A stretch of DNA of 64,000 nucleotides from Rhodopseudomonas pseudopalustris (lineage in GTDB: Bacteria > Pseudomonadota > Alphaproteobacteria > Rhizobiales > Xanthobacteraceae): the NCBI RefSeq assembly GCF_900110435.1, contig NZ_FODT01000005.1:310001-374000 (forward strand), read 5' to 3'. Position numbers and translations under genes: made by a program. A model generated the notes under the pieces. That model saw only the letters and a list, made by a program, of their open reading frames with translations, was not told where the DNA came from and made no database searches. Within the stretch, counting starts at the first letter, position 1. Every line of letters begins with the position of its first letter. Shown here piece after piece: positions 1 through 28,153 of the stretch.

Positions 1-600
1 TCGAAGTCGGGCATTCACCGGTTGATCACGGCGCTGGAGGAGCGCGGCTTCATTCGCCGCCTGCCCAACCGCGCCCGCGCCATCGAAGTGATCAAGCTGC
101 CTGATCTCGGCGGCAACACCGGCGGCGGCCGCCGCGGCTTCACCCCGAGCGTCATCGAAGGCACCCTCGGCAAGGTCCGCCCGCCGAGCCACTCCCATGC
201 CGAGGACGAGTCCGATCGCAATGTCGCGGTGCCGGTGATGGGCCGGATCGCCGCCGGCACTCCGATCGAGGCGCTGCAGACCCGCAGCCACACCATCAGC
301 GTGCCGCCCGACATGCTCGGCTCCGGCGAGCACTACGCGCTCGAAGTGCGCGGCGATTCGATGGTCGAGGCCGGCATTCTCGACGGCGACATGGCGCTGA
401 TCCAGCGCAACGAGAGCGCCGAGACCGGCGACATCGTGGTGGCGCTGATCGACGAGGAGGAAGCAACTCTGAAGCGCTTCCGCCGCCGCGGCGCATCGAT
501 CGCGCTGGAGCCAGCCAACGCCGCCTACGAAGTCCGCATCCTGCCGCCGAACCGCGTCCGGATTCAGGGCAAGCTGATCGGGTTGTATCGCAAGTACTAA
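1..600 (+). CDS. lexA: LexA SOS repressor, 5' end missing
   Basis: Transcriptional repressor of the SOS regulon, inactivated by RecA-stimulated self-cleavage. The reading frame is already open at base 1 with the end of the winged helix-turn-helix ([17 protein letters not shown]), so roughly 40 N-terminal residues lie outside the window. The autocleavage site Ala-Gly in GRIAAGTP is near nt 250-262, the catalytic Ser is in RGDSMVEAG (about nt 358) and the catalytic Lys in ATLKRF (about nt 472). The linker between the DNA-binding and peptidase domains is long, as in other alphaproteobacterial LexA proteins. Its probable target in this window is the double LexA box at 26898-26930. The gene converges on comEC. 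Confidence 0.97.
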
Positions 601-2928: not shown

Positions 2929-3003
2929 GGCGCTCGCTCCTGATGAGGCGCGACGCCCAGAGTGGCGCAGATCGGGATCGCCGGCAACAGCCGACGCGTA
3001 GCG

Positions 3004-4689
3004 TCAGCTCTTGCCGCTGACTTCCTTGGCGAAGGTATCGCGCAGTCCGATGGTGCGATTGAACACGGGTTTGTCGGCGGTGGAATCCGCGTCGCGGACG
3101 AAATAGCCCTGACGTTCGAATTGGATCGGTTCCGCGGAATTGCTCGCCGCCACCGACAGTTCGATCCGCGCGTTGGTCAGCACTTCAAGCGATTGCGGAT
3201 TGAGGTCGGCTACGAAATTAGCCGCGCTCGGCGCCGGATTGGCGAACAGCTGATTATAAACGCGAATCTCAGCCGGCACCGATTGGGCCGCCGGCAGCCA
3301 GTGCATCGTCGCCTTGACCTTGCGGCCATCCGGCGCGTTTCCGCCACGGGTCTCGGGATCATAGCTGCAGCGCAGCTCGACGATCTCGCCCTTGTCGTTC
3401 TTCACCACCTCGCGGCACTTGATGAAGTACGCGTAGCGCAACCGTACTTCGTTGCCGGGAAACAGCCGGAAGAACTTCTTCGGCGGCGTCTCCATGAAGT
3501 CGTCCTGCTCGATATACAGCTCGCGGCCGAACGTGATCTTGCGGGTGCCGGCGGAGGGATCGTCCGGATGGTTGATCGCCTCGAGTTCCTCGGTCTGGCC
3601 TTCCGGATAGTTTTCGATCACCACCTTCAGCGGCCGCAGCACTGCCATCCGGCGCTGCGACGTGCGGTTGAGCTCCTCGCGGATGCAGAATTCCAGCATT
3701 CCGACGTCGACCACACTGTTGGCCTTGGCGACGCCGATCCGCTTCACGAATTCACGGATCGCCGCCGGCGGCACGCCGCGGCGCTTGAGGCCGGCGATCG
3801 TCGGCATCCGCGGGTCGTCCCATCCGCTGACATGACCTCCGCGGACGAGCTCCGTCAGCACCCGCTTCGACAGCAGCGTATAGGTGATGTTGAGCCGTGC
3901 GAATTCGTATTGCTTCGGCTGCGACGGCACCGGCAGCTTCGACAGCAGCCATTCGTAGAGCGGCCGGTGATCCTCGAATTCCAGCGTGCAGATCGAATGG
4001 GTCACCCCTTCGATCGCGTCCGACTGGCCGTGCGCATAATCGTAGCTCGGATAGATCGACCAAGCGTCCCCGGTGCGCGGATGATGCGCGTGCAGGATCC
4101 GGTACAGCACCGGATCGCGCAGATTGATGTTGCCCGACGCCATGTCGATCTTGGCGCGCAGCACCCTTGCGCCGTTCGGGAATTCACCGGCCTTCATGCG
4201 GCGGAACAGGTCGAGATTGTCCTCCACCGAGCGGTCGCGGAACGGGCTGTTGCGTCCCGGCTCGGTCAGCGTGCCGCGGCTCGTTCGAATTTCCTCCTGC
4301 GACTGGTCGTCGACATAGGCGTCGCCGTTGCGGATCAGCAGTTCGGCCCATTCATACAGCCGCTCGAAATAGTCCGAGGCGTAGAATACATTCCTGCCCC
4401 AGTCGAAGCCCAGCCAGCGCACATCGGCCTGAATCGAATCGATGTATTCCTGCTCTTCCTTGGTCGGGTTGGTGTCGTCGAAGCGCAGGTTGCAGCGGCC
4501 ACCGAATTCCTGGGCGATGCCGAAATTCAGAGCGATCGACTTGGCATGGCCGATATGCAGATAGCCGTTCGGCTCGGGCGGGAACCGCGTCACGACCTCG
4601 CGGTGCTTGCCGGCCTCGAGATCGGCCTGGACAATATCGCGAATGAAGTCGCGCCCTGCCTCGCCAGTCGCTGCGTCTGCCGTCGTCAT
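3004..4689 (-). CDS. glnS: Glutamine--tRNA ligase
   Basis: Class I aminoacyl-tRNA synthetase that charges tRNA-Gln with glutamine in the cytoplasm. The HIGH motif appears in [15 protein letters not shown] near the N-terminus and a KMSKS-type LLSKRVL further on. The C-terminal half is the paired anticodon-binding beta-barrels. From the chosen ATG at 4689 (MTTADAATG) the protein has 561 residues, close to the family norm. The frame stays open upstream to 4872, but that stretch is made of the palindromic repeat at 4712-4800, so the longer start is rejected. The gene is divergent from gltX. Many alphaproteobacteria lack GlnS and make Gln-tRNA by transamidation, so its presence beside gltX is of interest. 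Confidence 0.95.
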
Positions 4690-23124: not shown

Positions 23125-26100
23125 TCAGAGCGTCTCGACGTGCTCGACCCCGATCACCGCCTTGATCGCCCCGGCGATCTGGGGCGACACCTGAAACCGG
23201 CCGGGAATTTCGAATTCGACCTCGGTCTGCGGGTCGAGCCGCAGCACCAGGGCGATATTGCCTCCCGCGACCTTGGTCTCCGGCGGCTGCAGCCGTTTCG
23301 AGATCGAATCCAGCGGCTTGGTGTCCCGCAGGAAAATCCGCAGCCCTTTCTGGGTCTTGGCGGCAGCAGCGTCGAGCGGCTCGGCGTGCAGCACGCGGGC
23401 GCGAACGTCCTCGCCCTGCAGCTCGGCGCCGAGCTGCAGCAGCACCGCGGCGCCCGGCTCCAGCACTTCCCGATACTGCGCGAGCCCCTCGGAGAACAGC
23501 ACCGCCTCGAAATGGCCGGTCGGGTCGGACAGGCCCATGATCCCCATCTTGTTGCCGGTCTTGGTGCGGCGCTCCATCCGCGACACCACCGTGGCCGCAA
23601 CCTTCCCCGCCGTCGCGCCCGACTTCACCGCCTTGCAGAAATCCGACCAGGATTGCACCCGCAGCCGCTTCAGCGCGGTGGCGTAGTCGTCGAGCGGGTG
23701 ACCGGACAGGAAGAAACCGATGGCGTCGTATTCGCGCCGCAGCCGCTCCGCCGGCAGCCACGGCTCGACCTGCGGCAGCACGATCGATGGCGCATCCGCA
23801 AGTCCGCCGAACATGTCGTTCTGGCCGCTGGTGGCCGCCTCGTGGCTGCGCTGGCAGGCGGCGATGATCGCGTCGGCGCCGGCGAACACCCGCGCGCGAT
23901 TGGGATCGAGGCAGTCGAACGCGCCGGCGGCCGCGAGGCTTTCGATCACCCGCTTGTTGATCGCCCGCGGATTGACCCGGGCGGCGAAGTCCGCGAGTGA
24001 GCTGAACGGCTTGTCGCCCCGCGCCTCGACGATCATCTGAACCGCGTGCTGGCCGACGCCCTTCAGGCCAGCGAGCGCGTAGTAGATCGTATTCTCGCCG
24101 ACCTCGAAGGTCGGGCCGGACCGATTGACCGAGGGCGCTTCGACCTTGATACCGAGTCGCTGCGCCTCGGCGCGGAATTCCGACAGCTTGTCGGTGTTGT
24201 TGAGATCGAGCGTCATCGACGCCGCGATGAACTCGACCGGATAATGCGCCTTCATATAGGCGGTGTGATACGACACCAGCGCGTAGGCGGCCGCGTGACT
24301 CTTGTTGAAGCCGTAGTCGGCGAACTTCGCCAGCAGATCGAAGATCGTGTCAGCGGCGTCCTTGGGCACGCCGTTTCTGGTGGCGCCCTCGACGAAGATC
24401 GCGCGCTGCTTCTCCATCTCGGCGCGGATCTTCTTGCCCATCGCGCGGCGCAGCAGGTCGGCTTCGCCGAGCGAATAGCCGGCCATCACCTGCGCGATCT
24501 GCATCACCTGTTCCTGGTAGATGATGACGCCGAACGTCTCCTTGAGAATCGGCTCCAGCATCGGATGCAGATATTCCGGCTCCTCGTCGCCGTGCTTGCG
24601 CGCGCAATAGGTCGGGATGTTCGCCATCGGACCCGGGCGATACAGCGCGACCAGCGCAATGATGTCCTCGAAGCGGTCGGGGCGCATGTCGACCAGCGCG
24701 CGGCGCATGCCCTGACTTTCAACCTGAAACACGCCGACCACATCGCCGCGCGCCAACATCTGATAGCTCGGAGCGTCCTCGATCCCGAGCGTCGCCAGAT
24801 CGATATGGATATTGCGCTGCTTGAGCAGCTTCACCGCGACATCGAGCACGGTGAGCGTCTTGAGGCCGAGGAAGTCGAACTTCACCAGACCCGCCGGCTC
24901 GACCCATTTCATGTTGAACTGGGTCACCGGCATATCGGATTTGGGATCGCGATACATCGGCACCAGATCGCTGAGCGGCCGATCGCCGATCACGATGCCG
25001 GCGGCGTGGGTCGAGGCGTGGCGGGTCAGGCCCTCGAGCTTCTGCGCGATGTCGAAGGCGCGCGCCACCACCGGGTCTTCGTCGCGAAAGGCCTGCAGCT
25101 TCGGCTCGCTTTCGATCGCCTGCTTCAGCGACACCGGCGCGGCTGGATTCTGCGGCACCAGCTTGGTCAGCTTGTCGACCTGCCCGTACGGCATCTGCAG
25201 CACGCGGCCGACGTCGCGCAGCACGCCGCGCGCCTGCAGCGTACCGAAAGTGATGATCTGGGCGACCTGATCGCGGCCGTAGCGCTGCTGCACATATTCG
25301 ATCACTTCGCCGCGGCGGTCCTGGCAGAAGTCGATGTCGAAGTCCGGCATCGACACGCGTTCGGGATTGAGGAAGCGCTCGAACAGCAGGCCGAAGCGGA
25401 TCGGATCGAGATCGGTGATGGTCAGCGAATACGCCACCAGCGAGCCCGCGCCGGAGCCGCGGCCCGGGCCGACCGGAATGCCGTGCGCCTTGGCCCATTT
25501 GATGAAGTCGGACACGATCAGGAAGTAACCGGCATATTTCATCCGGGTGATGACATCGAGCTCGAAGGCGAGCCGCTTGCGATAGTCCTCCTCGGACATG
25601 CCCTGCGACAGGCCGTGGATGCGCATCCGGTCGGCGAGCCCCTGCTCGGCCTGGCGACGCAGTTCGGCGGCTTCCGCAGCCGCCGCCTCCTCGGCGTCGT
25701 TGACGCTGGCGCCGACGGTGAACAGCGGCAGGATCGGCTTGCGGGTCAGCGGCCGATAGGCGCAGCGCTGCGCGATCTCGACGGTGGAGGCCAGCGCCTC
25801 CGGCAGATCAGCGAACAGCACCGCCATTTCGGCGCGGGTCTTGAAGCGGTGGTCGGGCGTGAGCTGGACGCGATCGGTCTCGGCGATCAGCTTGCCGGAG
25901 GCGATGCACAGCAGCGCGTCGTGCGCCTCGAAATCATCGGAGGTCGCAAAATGCGGCTCGTTGGTGGCGACCAGCGGAAGCCCCATGTCGTAAGCGACGT
26001 CAATCAGCCCTGCTTCAGCGCGGCGCTCGAAATCGGTGTTGTGGCGCTGCAGCTCGATATAGAGCCGGTCGCCGAACGCCTGCGCCAGCCGCTCGCAGCG

Positions 26101-26580
26101 CAGCCGTCCCAGCGCCGGATCGGTCAGCATCGCCAGCGAGATCGGCCCGTCCGGCCCGCCGGTCAGCGCGATCACGTCCTCGGTCTCGCCGTCGAGCCAG
26201 TCGAACTTGATGTGCGGCGGCTGGTTCACCGGGGTTTCGAGGAACGCCCGCGAATTCAGCCGCATCAGGCTGCGATAGCCGCGCTCGCGCGTCGCCAGCA
26301 ATACGATCCGCGACGGCGCCGCCACCGCGGTGTTGCGCGAGTTCGGGTCCTGGTCGCCGAAATCGATCCCGAGCTCGAGGCCGACGATCGGCTGGATGCC
26401 GCTGCCGGCGAGCTTATCGGAGAATTCCAGCGCGCCGAACATGTTATCGGTGTCGGTCAACGCCAGCGCCGGCTGGTGGTCGGCTTTGGCAAGTTCCGCC
26501 AGCCGCGCGATCTTCATCGAGCCCTTCAGCAGCGAATAGGCCGAGTGAACGTGCAAATGGACGAATCCGGCATTGCTCAT
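23125..26580 (-). CDS. dnaE: DNA polymerase III subunit alpha
   Basis: Replicative polymerase (C-family), 1151 residues. The N-terminal PHP domain begins HLHVHSAYSLLKGSMKI. The palm catalytic acidic motif is PDFDIDFCQDRRGEVIEY, preceded by the GPGRGSGAGSLVAYSL region. The C-terminal part holds the helix-hairpin-helix (YALAGLKGVGQHAVQMIVEA) and OB-fold. The length and the presence of the beta-clamp-binding region support the main DnaE1 rather than the error-prone DnaE2. The gene is separated from rpsB by about 200 bp and follows an unusual SOS micro-ORF upstream. The start ATG (MSNAGFVHLHVHS) is well placed. Confidence 0.96.
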   Translation of the reverse strand: MSNAGFVHLHVHSAYSLLKGSMKIARLAELAKADHQPALALTDTDNMFGALEFSDKLAGSGIQPIVGLELGIDFGDQDPNSRNTAVAAPSRIVLLATRERGYRSLMRLNSRAFLETPVNQPPHIKFDWLDGETEDVIALTGGPDGPISLAMLTDPALGRLRCERLAQAFGDRLYIELQRHNTDFERRAEAGLIDVAYDMGLPLVATNEPHFATSDDFEAHDALLCIASGKLIAETDRVQLTPDHRFKTRAEMAVLFADLPEALASTVEIAQRCAYRPLTRKPILPLFTVGASVNDAEEAAAAEAAELRRQAEQGLADRMRIHGLSQGMSEEDYRKRLAFELDVITRMKYAGYFLIVSDFIKWAKAHGIPVGPGRGSGAGSLVAYSLTITDLDPIRFGLLFERFLNPERVSMPDFDIDFCQDRRGEVIEYVQQRYGRDQVAQIITFGTLQARGVLRDVGRVLQMPYGQVDKLTKLVPQNPAAPVSLKQAIESEPKLQAFRDEDPVVARAFDIAQKLEGLTRHASTHAAGIVIGDRPLSDLVPMYRDPKSDMPVTQFNMKWVEPAGLVKFDFLGLKTLTVLDVAVKLLKQRNIHIDLATLGIEDAPSYQMLARGDVVGVFQVESQGMRRALVDMRPDRFEDIIALVALYRPGPMANIPTYCARKHGDEEPEYLHPMLEPILKETFGVIIYQEQVMQIAQVMAGYSLGEADLLRRAMGKKIRAEMEKQRAIFVEGATRNGVPKDAADTIFDLLAKFADYGFNKSHAAAYALVSYHTAYMKAHYPVEFIAASMTLDLNNTDKLSEFRAEAQRLGIKVEAPSVNRSGPTFEVGENTIYYALAGLKGVGQHAVQMIVEARGDKPFSSLADFAARVNPRAINKRVIESLAAAGAFDCLDPNRARVFAGADAIIAACQRSHEAATSGQNDMFGGLADAPSIVLPQVEPWLPAERLRREYDAIGFFLSGHPLDDYATALKRLRVQSWSDFCKAVKSGATAGKVAATVVSRMERRTKTGNKMGIMGLSDPTGHFEAVLFSEGLAQYREVLEPGAAVLLQLGAELQGEDVRARVLHAEPLDAAAAKTQKGLRIFLRDTKPLDSISKRLQPPETKVAGGNIALVLRLDPQTEVEFEIPGRFQVSPQIAGAIKAVIGVEHVETL

Positions 26581-26778
26581 CGGCGTGGCGGCTCTCGATC
26601 GGGCGGCAAATCGTGGGGGCGATCAGCGGTGAAGGTGGAGGGCCGGCGCGCGGAGCGCAGCCGACTCGACCGAAATGGTGGTCCGACCGACGCGGCCGCG
26701 CAAGTCAGTCGGGCAACCTTATCCCCGCTATCGGCGCAGCGCTCCCCGTAGTTGGCGCAGCGCTCCCCGCCGCTGCAT

Positions 26779-26877
26779 TCAGAGCTGCGGCAGCACCTGA
26801 GCCCAAACCGCCACCATCCCGATGAACAAAGCAATCGACGTCAGCGCTGCAGCTTCCTGGATGAAGATCTTCAACAT
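26779..26877 (-). CDS. 32-residue LexA-controlled membrane peptide, SidA-like candidate
   Basis: Short open frame of 33 codons including TGA. The encoded peptide begins MLKIFIQEAAALTSIAL, has one hydrophobic stretch (about residues 11-29) long enough to span a membrane, and ends WAQVLPQL. The ATG is preceded by a good Shine-Dalgarno (AGGGAGCGG, about 7 nt away). Directly upstream are two LexA boxes at 26898-26930, and no other gene faces them. Caulobacter SidA is a 29-residue, LexA-controlled inner-membrane peptide that blocks division after DNA damage. Size, topology and regulation match, but sequence homology has not been tested. The family assignment is therefore inference; expression as an SOS gene is well supported. 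Confidence 0.72.
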   Translation of the reverse strand: MLKIFIQEAAALTSIALFIGMVAVWAQVLPQL

Positions 26878-26897
26878 CGTCCGCTCCCTGGACACGT

Positions 26898-26930
26898 GAA
26901 CATAAGCAGAACAATGTTCTCTTTATGTTC
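26898..26930 (-). promoter_or_regulatory. Double LexA box, SOS promoter of the micro-ORF
   Basis: GAAC-N7-GAAC at 26898-26912 and GTTC-N7-GTTC at 26916-26930, three bases apart, together form a near-perfect 33-bp palindrome. GAACN7GAAC (or its complement) is the LexA operator of Rhizobiales and other alphaproteobacteria. On the minus strand a CTTGACG sequence at 26934-26940 could be the -35, so LexA would sit over the promoter. The nearest box ends 20 nt before the ATG at 26877. Confidence 0.88.
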
Positions 26931-27073
26931 GATCGTCAAGCAGCGGTATCTGGACGAAGCTGACAATCATCCCGAACCATGCGCCGTGGTTAATCGACGC
27001 CGCACGACCTTCCAACGTTTGGCGCTGCCTCAATCGCGATCCGGCGTTCCCAGCGGAAAAATACGAGCCGCGA
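26931..27073. other. Intergenic, no gene seen
   Basis: Lies between the LexA boxes and the end of the rlmN-like gene. No open frame with family resemblance and no strong hairpin with a T tract were found. Confidence 0.5.
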
Positions 27074-28153
27074 TCACGTCATCCGGCCTTGCCGAGGTCG
27101 GTTTCCGACCGGAAGGCCCTTGAGATCGCGCAGCCAGAGCTGGCCGCAGGCCGCGGAGATGTCGCGACCCTGGGTATCCCGCACGACGACGGGAACAAGC
27201 GCATTTTCGAGCGTCGTCCTGAAATGCGCGAGGCTTCGATCGGGCGTTCTTTGCAACCCGACGCCGTCGACCGGATTCCATCTCATCAGATTCACGCGGG
27301 CCGGAGAATCCCGCAGCATCGCCGCAAGGCGCCTTGCATCTGCGATACTGTCGTTGATGCCCGGCAGGACCAGATAGGCGAACGTCACCGGCCGATTGTG
27401 CCGCCTCGCCCAAGCGCACGCGCGTTCGACCACTTCACCAAGAGGGTGCTTCCGCGCTCCCGGAATCAGGCGGTCGCGAACCTCCTGCGTTGTCGCGTGC
27501 AGCGAGATCGTCAAATTGATCGCCAGATGCTCCTCGCGCAGTTGCTTCAGCGCCTTCGGAATGCCGATCGTCGACAATGTGATGCCGGTCGTGGGGAAGT
27601 TCATCCCCTGCCGGTCTCGCAGGATCCTGATGGCCTTGAGGACCTGTTGGTAGTTGTTGAGCGGCTCGCCGATTCCCATGAAGACAATGCGGTTGACCTT
27701 TGGCCCGAGGCGGACGACCTGCTCGACGATCTCACCCGCTTCGAGATTGCGCATCAATCCGGCTTGGCCCGACGCGCAGAAGCGACAGGCAAATGCGCAA
27801 CCGACCTGCGATGAAATGCAGGCGGTGTGGCCATCGAAACGCCGGATCAAAACACTCTCGACGGCATAGCCGTCGTGAAGCCCGAACAGCATCTTTTCAG
27901 AGCGGCCACCCTGGTCCCGTCCGATCCTGGTCAGGGTGCGAAGCCGGACCCCGCGAGACCGGGCCCAATTCTGCAATCGGCGCGGAGGATCGGCATGAGG
28001 GAAGAACAGCTCCCGGTAAGTGACGTCGGGGACAGCACCTTCATGCAAGCCGGCGAACTCGGACGAGGTCAGACCGAGCGAGAGCCCGGACACCCCGGCC
28101 GGGTTGCGCTGGCGGACCAGATCTGGCGTCGAATGTCGTTGTGCGCTTGCCAT
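27074..28153 (-). CDS. RlmN/Cfr family radical SAM 23S rRNA methyltransferase, divergent
   Basis: Radical SAM enzyme of the RlmN/Cfr group, which methylates adenine 2503 (C2 or C8) of 23S rRNA. The iron-sulphur motif CxxxCxxC is GCAFACRFCASGQ (Cys 119, 123, 126) inside CISSQVGC. The methyl-carrying C-terminal Cys is at about 336 in ISAACGQLW. GEPLNNYQQV and STIGIPKAL are also conserved. The N-terminal 70 residues do not look like a standard RlmN accessory domain. The segment AYLVLPGINDS is closer by eye to Cfr than to the E. coli RlmN equivalent. It is preceded by a TetR gene and a perfect operator over its promoter, unlike a housekeeping rlmN. Whether it acts as RlmN or Cfr cannot be decided here. 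Confidence 0.85.
   Translation of the reverse strand: MASAQRHSTPDLVRQRNPAGVSGLSLGLTSSEFAGLHEGAVPDVTYRELFFPHADPPRRLQNWARSRGVRLRTLTRIGRDQGGRSEKMLFGLHDGYAVESVLIRRFDGHTACISSQVGCAFACRFCASGQAGLMRNLEAGEIVEQVVRLGPKVNRIVFMGIGEPLNNYQQVLKAIRILRDRQGMNFPTTGITLSTIGIPKALKQLREEHLAINLTISLHATTQEVRDRLIPGARKHPLGEVVERACAWARRHNRPVTFAYLVLPGINDSIADARRLAAMLRDSPARVNLMRWNPVDGVGLQRTPDRSLAHFRTTLENALVPVVVRDTQGRDISAACGQLWLRDLKGLPVGNRPRQGRMT

Follow-up and report, generated by a model that had tools for sequence, protein, structure and literature searches.

SidA of Caulobacter holds back cell division during the repair of DNA. It is a 29-residue inner-membrane peptide acting on FtsW, and its action on FtsW/FtsN and the division block are known for that genus, according to the accessible parts of PMC4211646. 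The sidA gene is given as CCNA_02004 (PMC10769358, excerpt) and the Caulobacter dnaE as CC1926 (PMC1839093, excerpt). DidA, also of Caulobacter, is described as a small DNA-damage-induced inhibitor of division with a single span, and in this resembles what is proposed below; by the same description it is set apart, being 71 aa long, SOS-independent, and interacting with FtsN (PMC4211646). In the same paper, yneA and sidA are described as having no relation to sulA (PMC4211646). YneA of Bacillus, which interacts with FtsW, and SosA of Staphylococcus are comparable, on partial descriptions, as SOS- or damage-induced division inhibitors, but they are genes of other phyla. CC1926 (dnaE) is taken here to adjoin CCNA_02004 (sidA).

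The locus described here lies in a window of 64,000 nucleotides and is a short frame, predicted to encode a membrane peptide, behind two LexA boxes. It very probably represents an ortholog of Caulobacter sidA, that is, a LexA-controlled, division-holding peptide; the probability of this whole reading is put at about 0.84. In common with SidA, it has LexA-type boxes in the promoter, a length of about 30 residues with one hydrophobic span, a position directly upstream of dnaE (as in the Caulobacter records), and the core (E/D)xxAxxS(I/V)xxF(I/V)xM. The window peptide differs from SidA in its length (32 versus 29 residues), in its later W25-A26-Q27, and in having an inverted twin operator, whereas single, tandem or imperfect boxes are found in Caulobacteraceae. 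Furthermore, where all 22 Caulobacteraceae rows have the Trp of the FVWM motif, the window's family has Gly, so the contact with FtsW may differ in detail.

Peptide gene, operator and neighbours in the window

The features of the locus are as follows.

26779..26877, minus strand: candidate SidA-like gene, 32 codons plus TGA (frame ATG...TGA, translation MLKIFIQEAAALTSIALFIGMVAVWAQVLPQL)
26884..26889, minus strand: Shine-Dalgarno sequence AGGGAG, 6 bases 5' of the ATG
26898..26912, plus strand: predicted LexA box GAACATAAGCAGAAC, exact GAACN7GAAC, start-codon-proximal half of the twin operator
26916..26930, minus strand: predicted LexA box GAACATAAAGAGAAC, exact GAACN7GAAC, distal half of the twin operator
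26935..26939, minus strand: TTGAC, likely -35 element, 4 bases 5' of the twin operator
23125..26580, minus strand: dnaE (DNA polymerase III alpha, DnaE1; NF004226), 198 bases 3' of the stop of the peptide gene
1..600, plus strand: lexA, cut by the left edge, the match starting 111 bases left of the window

An earlier note on this DNA had read a 32-residue frame with a Shine-Dalgarno sequence and two opposed LexA boxes 3 bases apart, and both readings were borne out: the frame runs from 26877 to 26779 on the minus strand behind AGGGAG, and the boxes at 26898-26912 and 26916-26930 are both exact. Each box is a direct repeat GAACN7GAAC, and the two stand back to back as an inverted pair with a spacing of 3 bases. 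The complete pattern, GAACN7GAACN3GTTCN7GTTC, occurs once in the genome of 5,270,741 bases, where 0.0006 occurrences of the inverted twin pattern are expected from base composition. There are three exact boxes in the window, including both halves of the twin operator. Boxes with at most one mismatch number 56 in the window against a shuffle mean of 50.65, which is chance level, and therefore it is the exact pair that carries weight. With two exact boxes, of a type shared with GAACACATACTGAAC, which lies upstream of the lexA of the genome and outside the window, the promoter is predicted to be of the LexA type found in Alphaproteobacteria. That the twin operator means unusually tight repression is a guess. 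The strict sigma-70 promoter scan recognised no promoter in 26500-27100, and the terminator scan recognised no terminator in the same interval. Some 26 kb separate the lexA gene at the left window edge from the peptide gene.

The best 19-residue hydrophobicity mean of the 32-residue peptide is 2.03, at residues 11-29, and one membrane-spanning stretch is predicted at about these residues. The window has 144 frames that start with ATG and encode 25-50 aa; one of these matches the hydrophobicity of the peptide frame. Searches of the peptide against Pfam and NCBIfam models gave no match, an example of how a gene of this kind may be overlooked. Between the peptide gene and dnaE, at 26735-26770 of the window, a GCGCAGCGCTCCCCG stretch occurs twice as a direct repeat, and no terminator was recognised by the scan in these copies.

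Conservation in the window's family

When 296 genomes of the window's family were searched with the peptide, a match at E<=1 was obtained in 237; in seven of these the match is weaker than 1e-3. In all 50 family loci inspected (44 distinct), dnaE is downstream on the same strand, with a gap of 111 to about 2,000 bases. The selection analysis covered the 44 distinct loci from 21 genera; L032 and L034-L038 were omitted as second copies. The frame starts with ATG in 44/44 loci and has an internal stop in none, while the other two frames are interrupted in 43/44 and 11/44 loci. Between pairs of loci, the mean number of differences out of 32 is 7.92 at the first codon position, 2.31 at the second and 14.17 at the third, and the median dN/dS over 771 pairs is 0.148. 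By these patterns of substitution, the peptide frame is under purifying selection in the relatives, and the short frame is, judged from sequence, a real gene.

The twin operator is conserved as well. A search for the same frame behind paired boxes before dnaE in related genomes, proposed in the earlier note, found it in 44 distinct loci with an exact copy of the twin operator in 42; in the two exceptions, L030 and L051, the operator is degenerate. TTGAC is located 3-6 bases 5' of the operator in 42/44 loci. The ATG is 12-26 bases 3' of the operator, except for two loci with 54 and 86 bases. In L049, the peptide gene (3001-3096) and the twin operator are together and the start of dnaE is about 2 kb downstream, suggesting that this operator is the peptide's own.

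The family genomes without a peptide match comprise the 20 listed and 39 more, and dnaE could be placed in 17 of those listed. LexA boxes were sought in the 900 bases upstream of dnaE, with one A/T exchange tolerated in one half-site; L256 has merely 174 bases before dnaE. No box was present in this interval in 16 of the 17 loci. The remaining one, L240, has a twin box followed by a divergent 32-residue hydrophobic frame. None of the 17, L240 included, joined the SidA HMM described below. A kept operator with a lost frame, named in the earlier note as what would speak against the peptide, was thus sought in 17 family loci and no case was seen. This observation is an addition to the earlier note, as are the dnaE1 position in common with Caulobacter and the conservation of the twin operator.

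Relation to the Caulobacter peptides

Genomes of one family, Caulobacteraceae, were sampled by means of a CtrA query sequence, and in many of them a 29-residue hydrophobic frame is found behind LexA boxes before dnaE. A scan of named genomes with two such peptides as query gave 20 loci: 15 from Caulobacter (including one record of Caulobacter vibrioides OR37 and one of Caulobacter ginsengisoli), one from Brevundimonas, and one, two and one labelled Caulobacteraceae, Caulobacterales and Proteobacteria, respectively. The peptide has 29 aa in 20/20 of them, noting that a 29-aa query favours 29-aa loci. In 19/20, dnaE is directly downstream at a distance of 25-131 bases; in the twentieth, L230, the sequence stretch ends soon after the peptide. 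An exact LexA box is present within 75 bases before the start in 11/20 loci and a box with one changed half-site in 9/20. These 29-aa peptides are taken as SidA and stand in for the published NA1000 SidA sequence. Ten loci of the Caulobacteraceae sample (L166, L167, L169, L174, L178, L180, L195, L207, L208, and L209) have two LexA boxes of the same orientation before dnaE, a twin layout that differs from the inverted pair in the window's family.

A SidA HMM was seeded from the 20 named peptides alone and iterated at E<=0.001 over the 2,917 segments obtained by translating, in three frames, at most 900 bases before dnaE in each of 196 loci. Round 1 took in 46/50 Caulobacteraceae loci, round 2 took in 47/50 and L089 of another family, and later rounds reached 9 and finally 48/49 loci of the window's family, a set that includes five second copies (L034-L038). 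The window peptide was reached with an E of 5.6e-9. With the 2,917 segments reversed and added as decoys, there were no decoy hits in nine rounds and the result was unchanged. The family locus missed is L049, where the peptide is about 2 kb from dnaE and so beyond the 900 bases searched. No hit was obtained for L181, L182, and L184 of Caulobacteraceae. L217 of the named set and L196 of the Caulobacteraceae set are one and the same piece of contig, so the training and test sets overlap by at least one locus.

In hhalign, profile against profile, the E was 1.1e-5 over 25 columns, and of 200 permutations of the columns that preserved hydrophobicity, one reached the score of the real profile. With the closest row removed, the E was 6.2e-5 and none of the 200 permutations was as good. 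Profile A3 excludes L208 (31 aa) and near-identical rows. Pairwise comparisons with 2,000 class-preserving shuffles gave a z of 7.09 against the Caulobacteraceae peptide of L190, with no shuffle as good, and 4.28 against that of L215, with 0.2% of shuffles as good. Significance was not reached with L196, whose peptide is from Caulobacter (z 1.48; 9.5% of the shuffles did equally well), with L208 of Caulobacteraceae (z 0.37) or with the peptide of family f122 (z 0.01). The profile of the window's family alone, run against 385 genomes of the class, found nothing convincing outside the family, the best such hit having an E of 0.00145 over 16 of 32 positions. Because the direct comparison with a Caulobacter peptide was not significant and the class-wide profile search was unconvincing, it is by way of intermediate sequences and of the common locus that the window peptide is linked to SidA. 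The comparison with SidA that the earlier note had called for was thus made with 29-aa Caulobacter peptides from upstream of dnaE, and its proposal of a functional equivalent is supported as a probable orthology by the dnaE locus together with the iterated HMM and the profile comparison. Homology of the window peptide to these Caulobacter peptides, via intermediates, is what the sequence comparisons indicate.

For the class as a whole, 80 dnaE upstream regions were hand-picked among the matches listed (324/385 genomes matched), mostly one per family; six of the regions are truncated by the end of a contig, and L099 begins at a contig end. An exact LexA box is present within 1 kb upstream of dnaE in 21/80 regions, and there is none in the 44,786 bases further upstream. 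It is followed by a short hydrophobic frame in 15/21. The other six (L121, L128, L142, L151, L158, and L165) have a box and no frame passing the filter. In L121, L128, L142, and L151, a GTTCN7GTTC box is 51-79 bases before the dnaE match without a filtered hydrophobic frame; these boxes may represent direct LexA control of dnaE, or chance. The decoy-controlled SidA HMM takes in only 5/80 class regions, namely L086, L089, L163, L164, and L165, the last despite failing the frame filter. The other frames of the class sample may be diverged relatives or analogues. A separate HMM for the class sample had the peptides of that sample as its own seeds, which makes it circular, and was left out of account. 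It was the weak partial hits outside the family in the class-wide profile search that drew attention to the position before dnaE1.

Proposed role and alternative explanations

In an undamaged cell, the two boxes, which take up the sequence immediately 3' of the TTGAC of the likely -35 element, would be occupied by LexA and the promoter thereby kept shut. DNA damage would activate RecA and lead to self-cleavage of LexA, a short leader would then be transcribed, and the 32-residue peptide would be made. It would be inserted in the inner membrane, with its short N-terminal side probably inside, and would keep the late septal proteins (in Caulobacter, FtsW/FtsI/FtsN) from acting until LexA has been restored. 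The first steps of this scheme rest on sequence, and the septal arrest is transferred from Caulobacter as described in the accessible part of PMC4211646. We thus infer that LexA binds the operator, that the peptide is induced and inserts in the membrane in the direction given, and that it has an FtsW-type target and arrests division; inhibition of division through FtsW is proposed by analogy.

Alternatively, the purpose of the LexA promoter could be an increase in dnaE1 expression upon damage, with the peptide frame as an upstream leader ORF that tunes dnaE. In favour of this, a distance of 198 bases separates the peptide frame from dnaE, which has the same orientation, no terminator was recognised in 26500-27100, and dnaE is downstream in 50/50 family loci inspected. 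This explanation is nevertheless improbable, as selection acts on the amino-acid sequence, the gap to dnaE varies from 111 to about 2,000 bases, and L049 keeps peptide and twin operator together about 2 kb from dnaE; moreover, the Caulobacter peptide acts on division (PMC4211646, in part). A frame that occurs by chance behind real LexA boxes serving another gene is very improbable. Short frames are indeed common (144 of 25-50 aa with an ATG start in this window), but this candidate is already contradicted by the purifying selection and by frames intact in 44 loci, all with ATG and none with a stop, and boxes without a peptide were seen in 0/17 family loci lacking a peptide match.

The peptide might also be another LexA-controlled membrane peptide, such as a DinQ-like membrane-active toxin, resembling SidA in looks alone; DinQ is a known SOS-regulated toxic single-span inner-membrane peptide (PMC3567139, in part). 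Both locus and sequence tie the window peptide to the Caulobacter 29-aa peptides, which argues against such a toxin. The spread of toxin loci is usually patchy, unlike that of the present peptide, with matches in 237/296 family genomes and dnaE downstream in 50/50 loci. A toxin of this kind is therefore unlikely, marginally more so than a regulatory upstream ORF and far less so than a chance frame. The ortholog of sidA remains the preferred reading.

No SidA relative or SOS division inhibitor of Bradyrhizobium or Rhodopseudomonas was recognised among the matches listed in a partial literature. In PMC5082802, on small ORFs of Bradyrhizobium, a term search of the accessible main text found neither dnaE nor LexA, and the same partial literature yielded no paper on CCNA_02003. 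As the coverage of the literature is partial, no claim is made that the finding is unpublished.

The peptide is a concrete candidate for the SOS division inhibitor of a large bacterial family, for which no other was found named among the matches listed in the partial literature. Its natural variants, with Trp or Gly in the span, are a ready series for studying the contact with FtsW. It is possible, though well short of an even chance, that SidA is an old alphaproteobacterial checkpoint peptide, fixed before dnaE1 since before the split of the Caulobacter lineage and the window's family, and that LexA derepression reads through into dnaE1; if so, the division block and the supply of the replicative polymerase would rise together. 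Under the preferred reading, the checkpoint peptide would no longer be that of a single model organism, but a family that can be recognised by its dnaE1 locus, its operator, and a short core.
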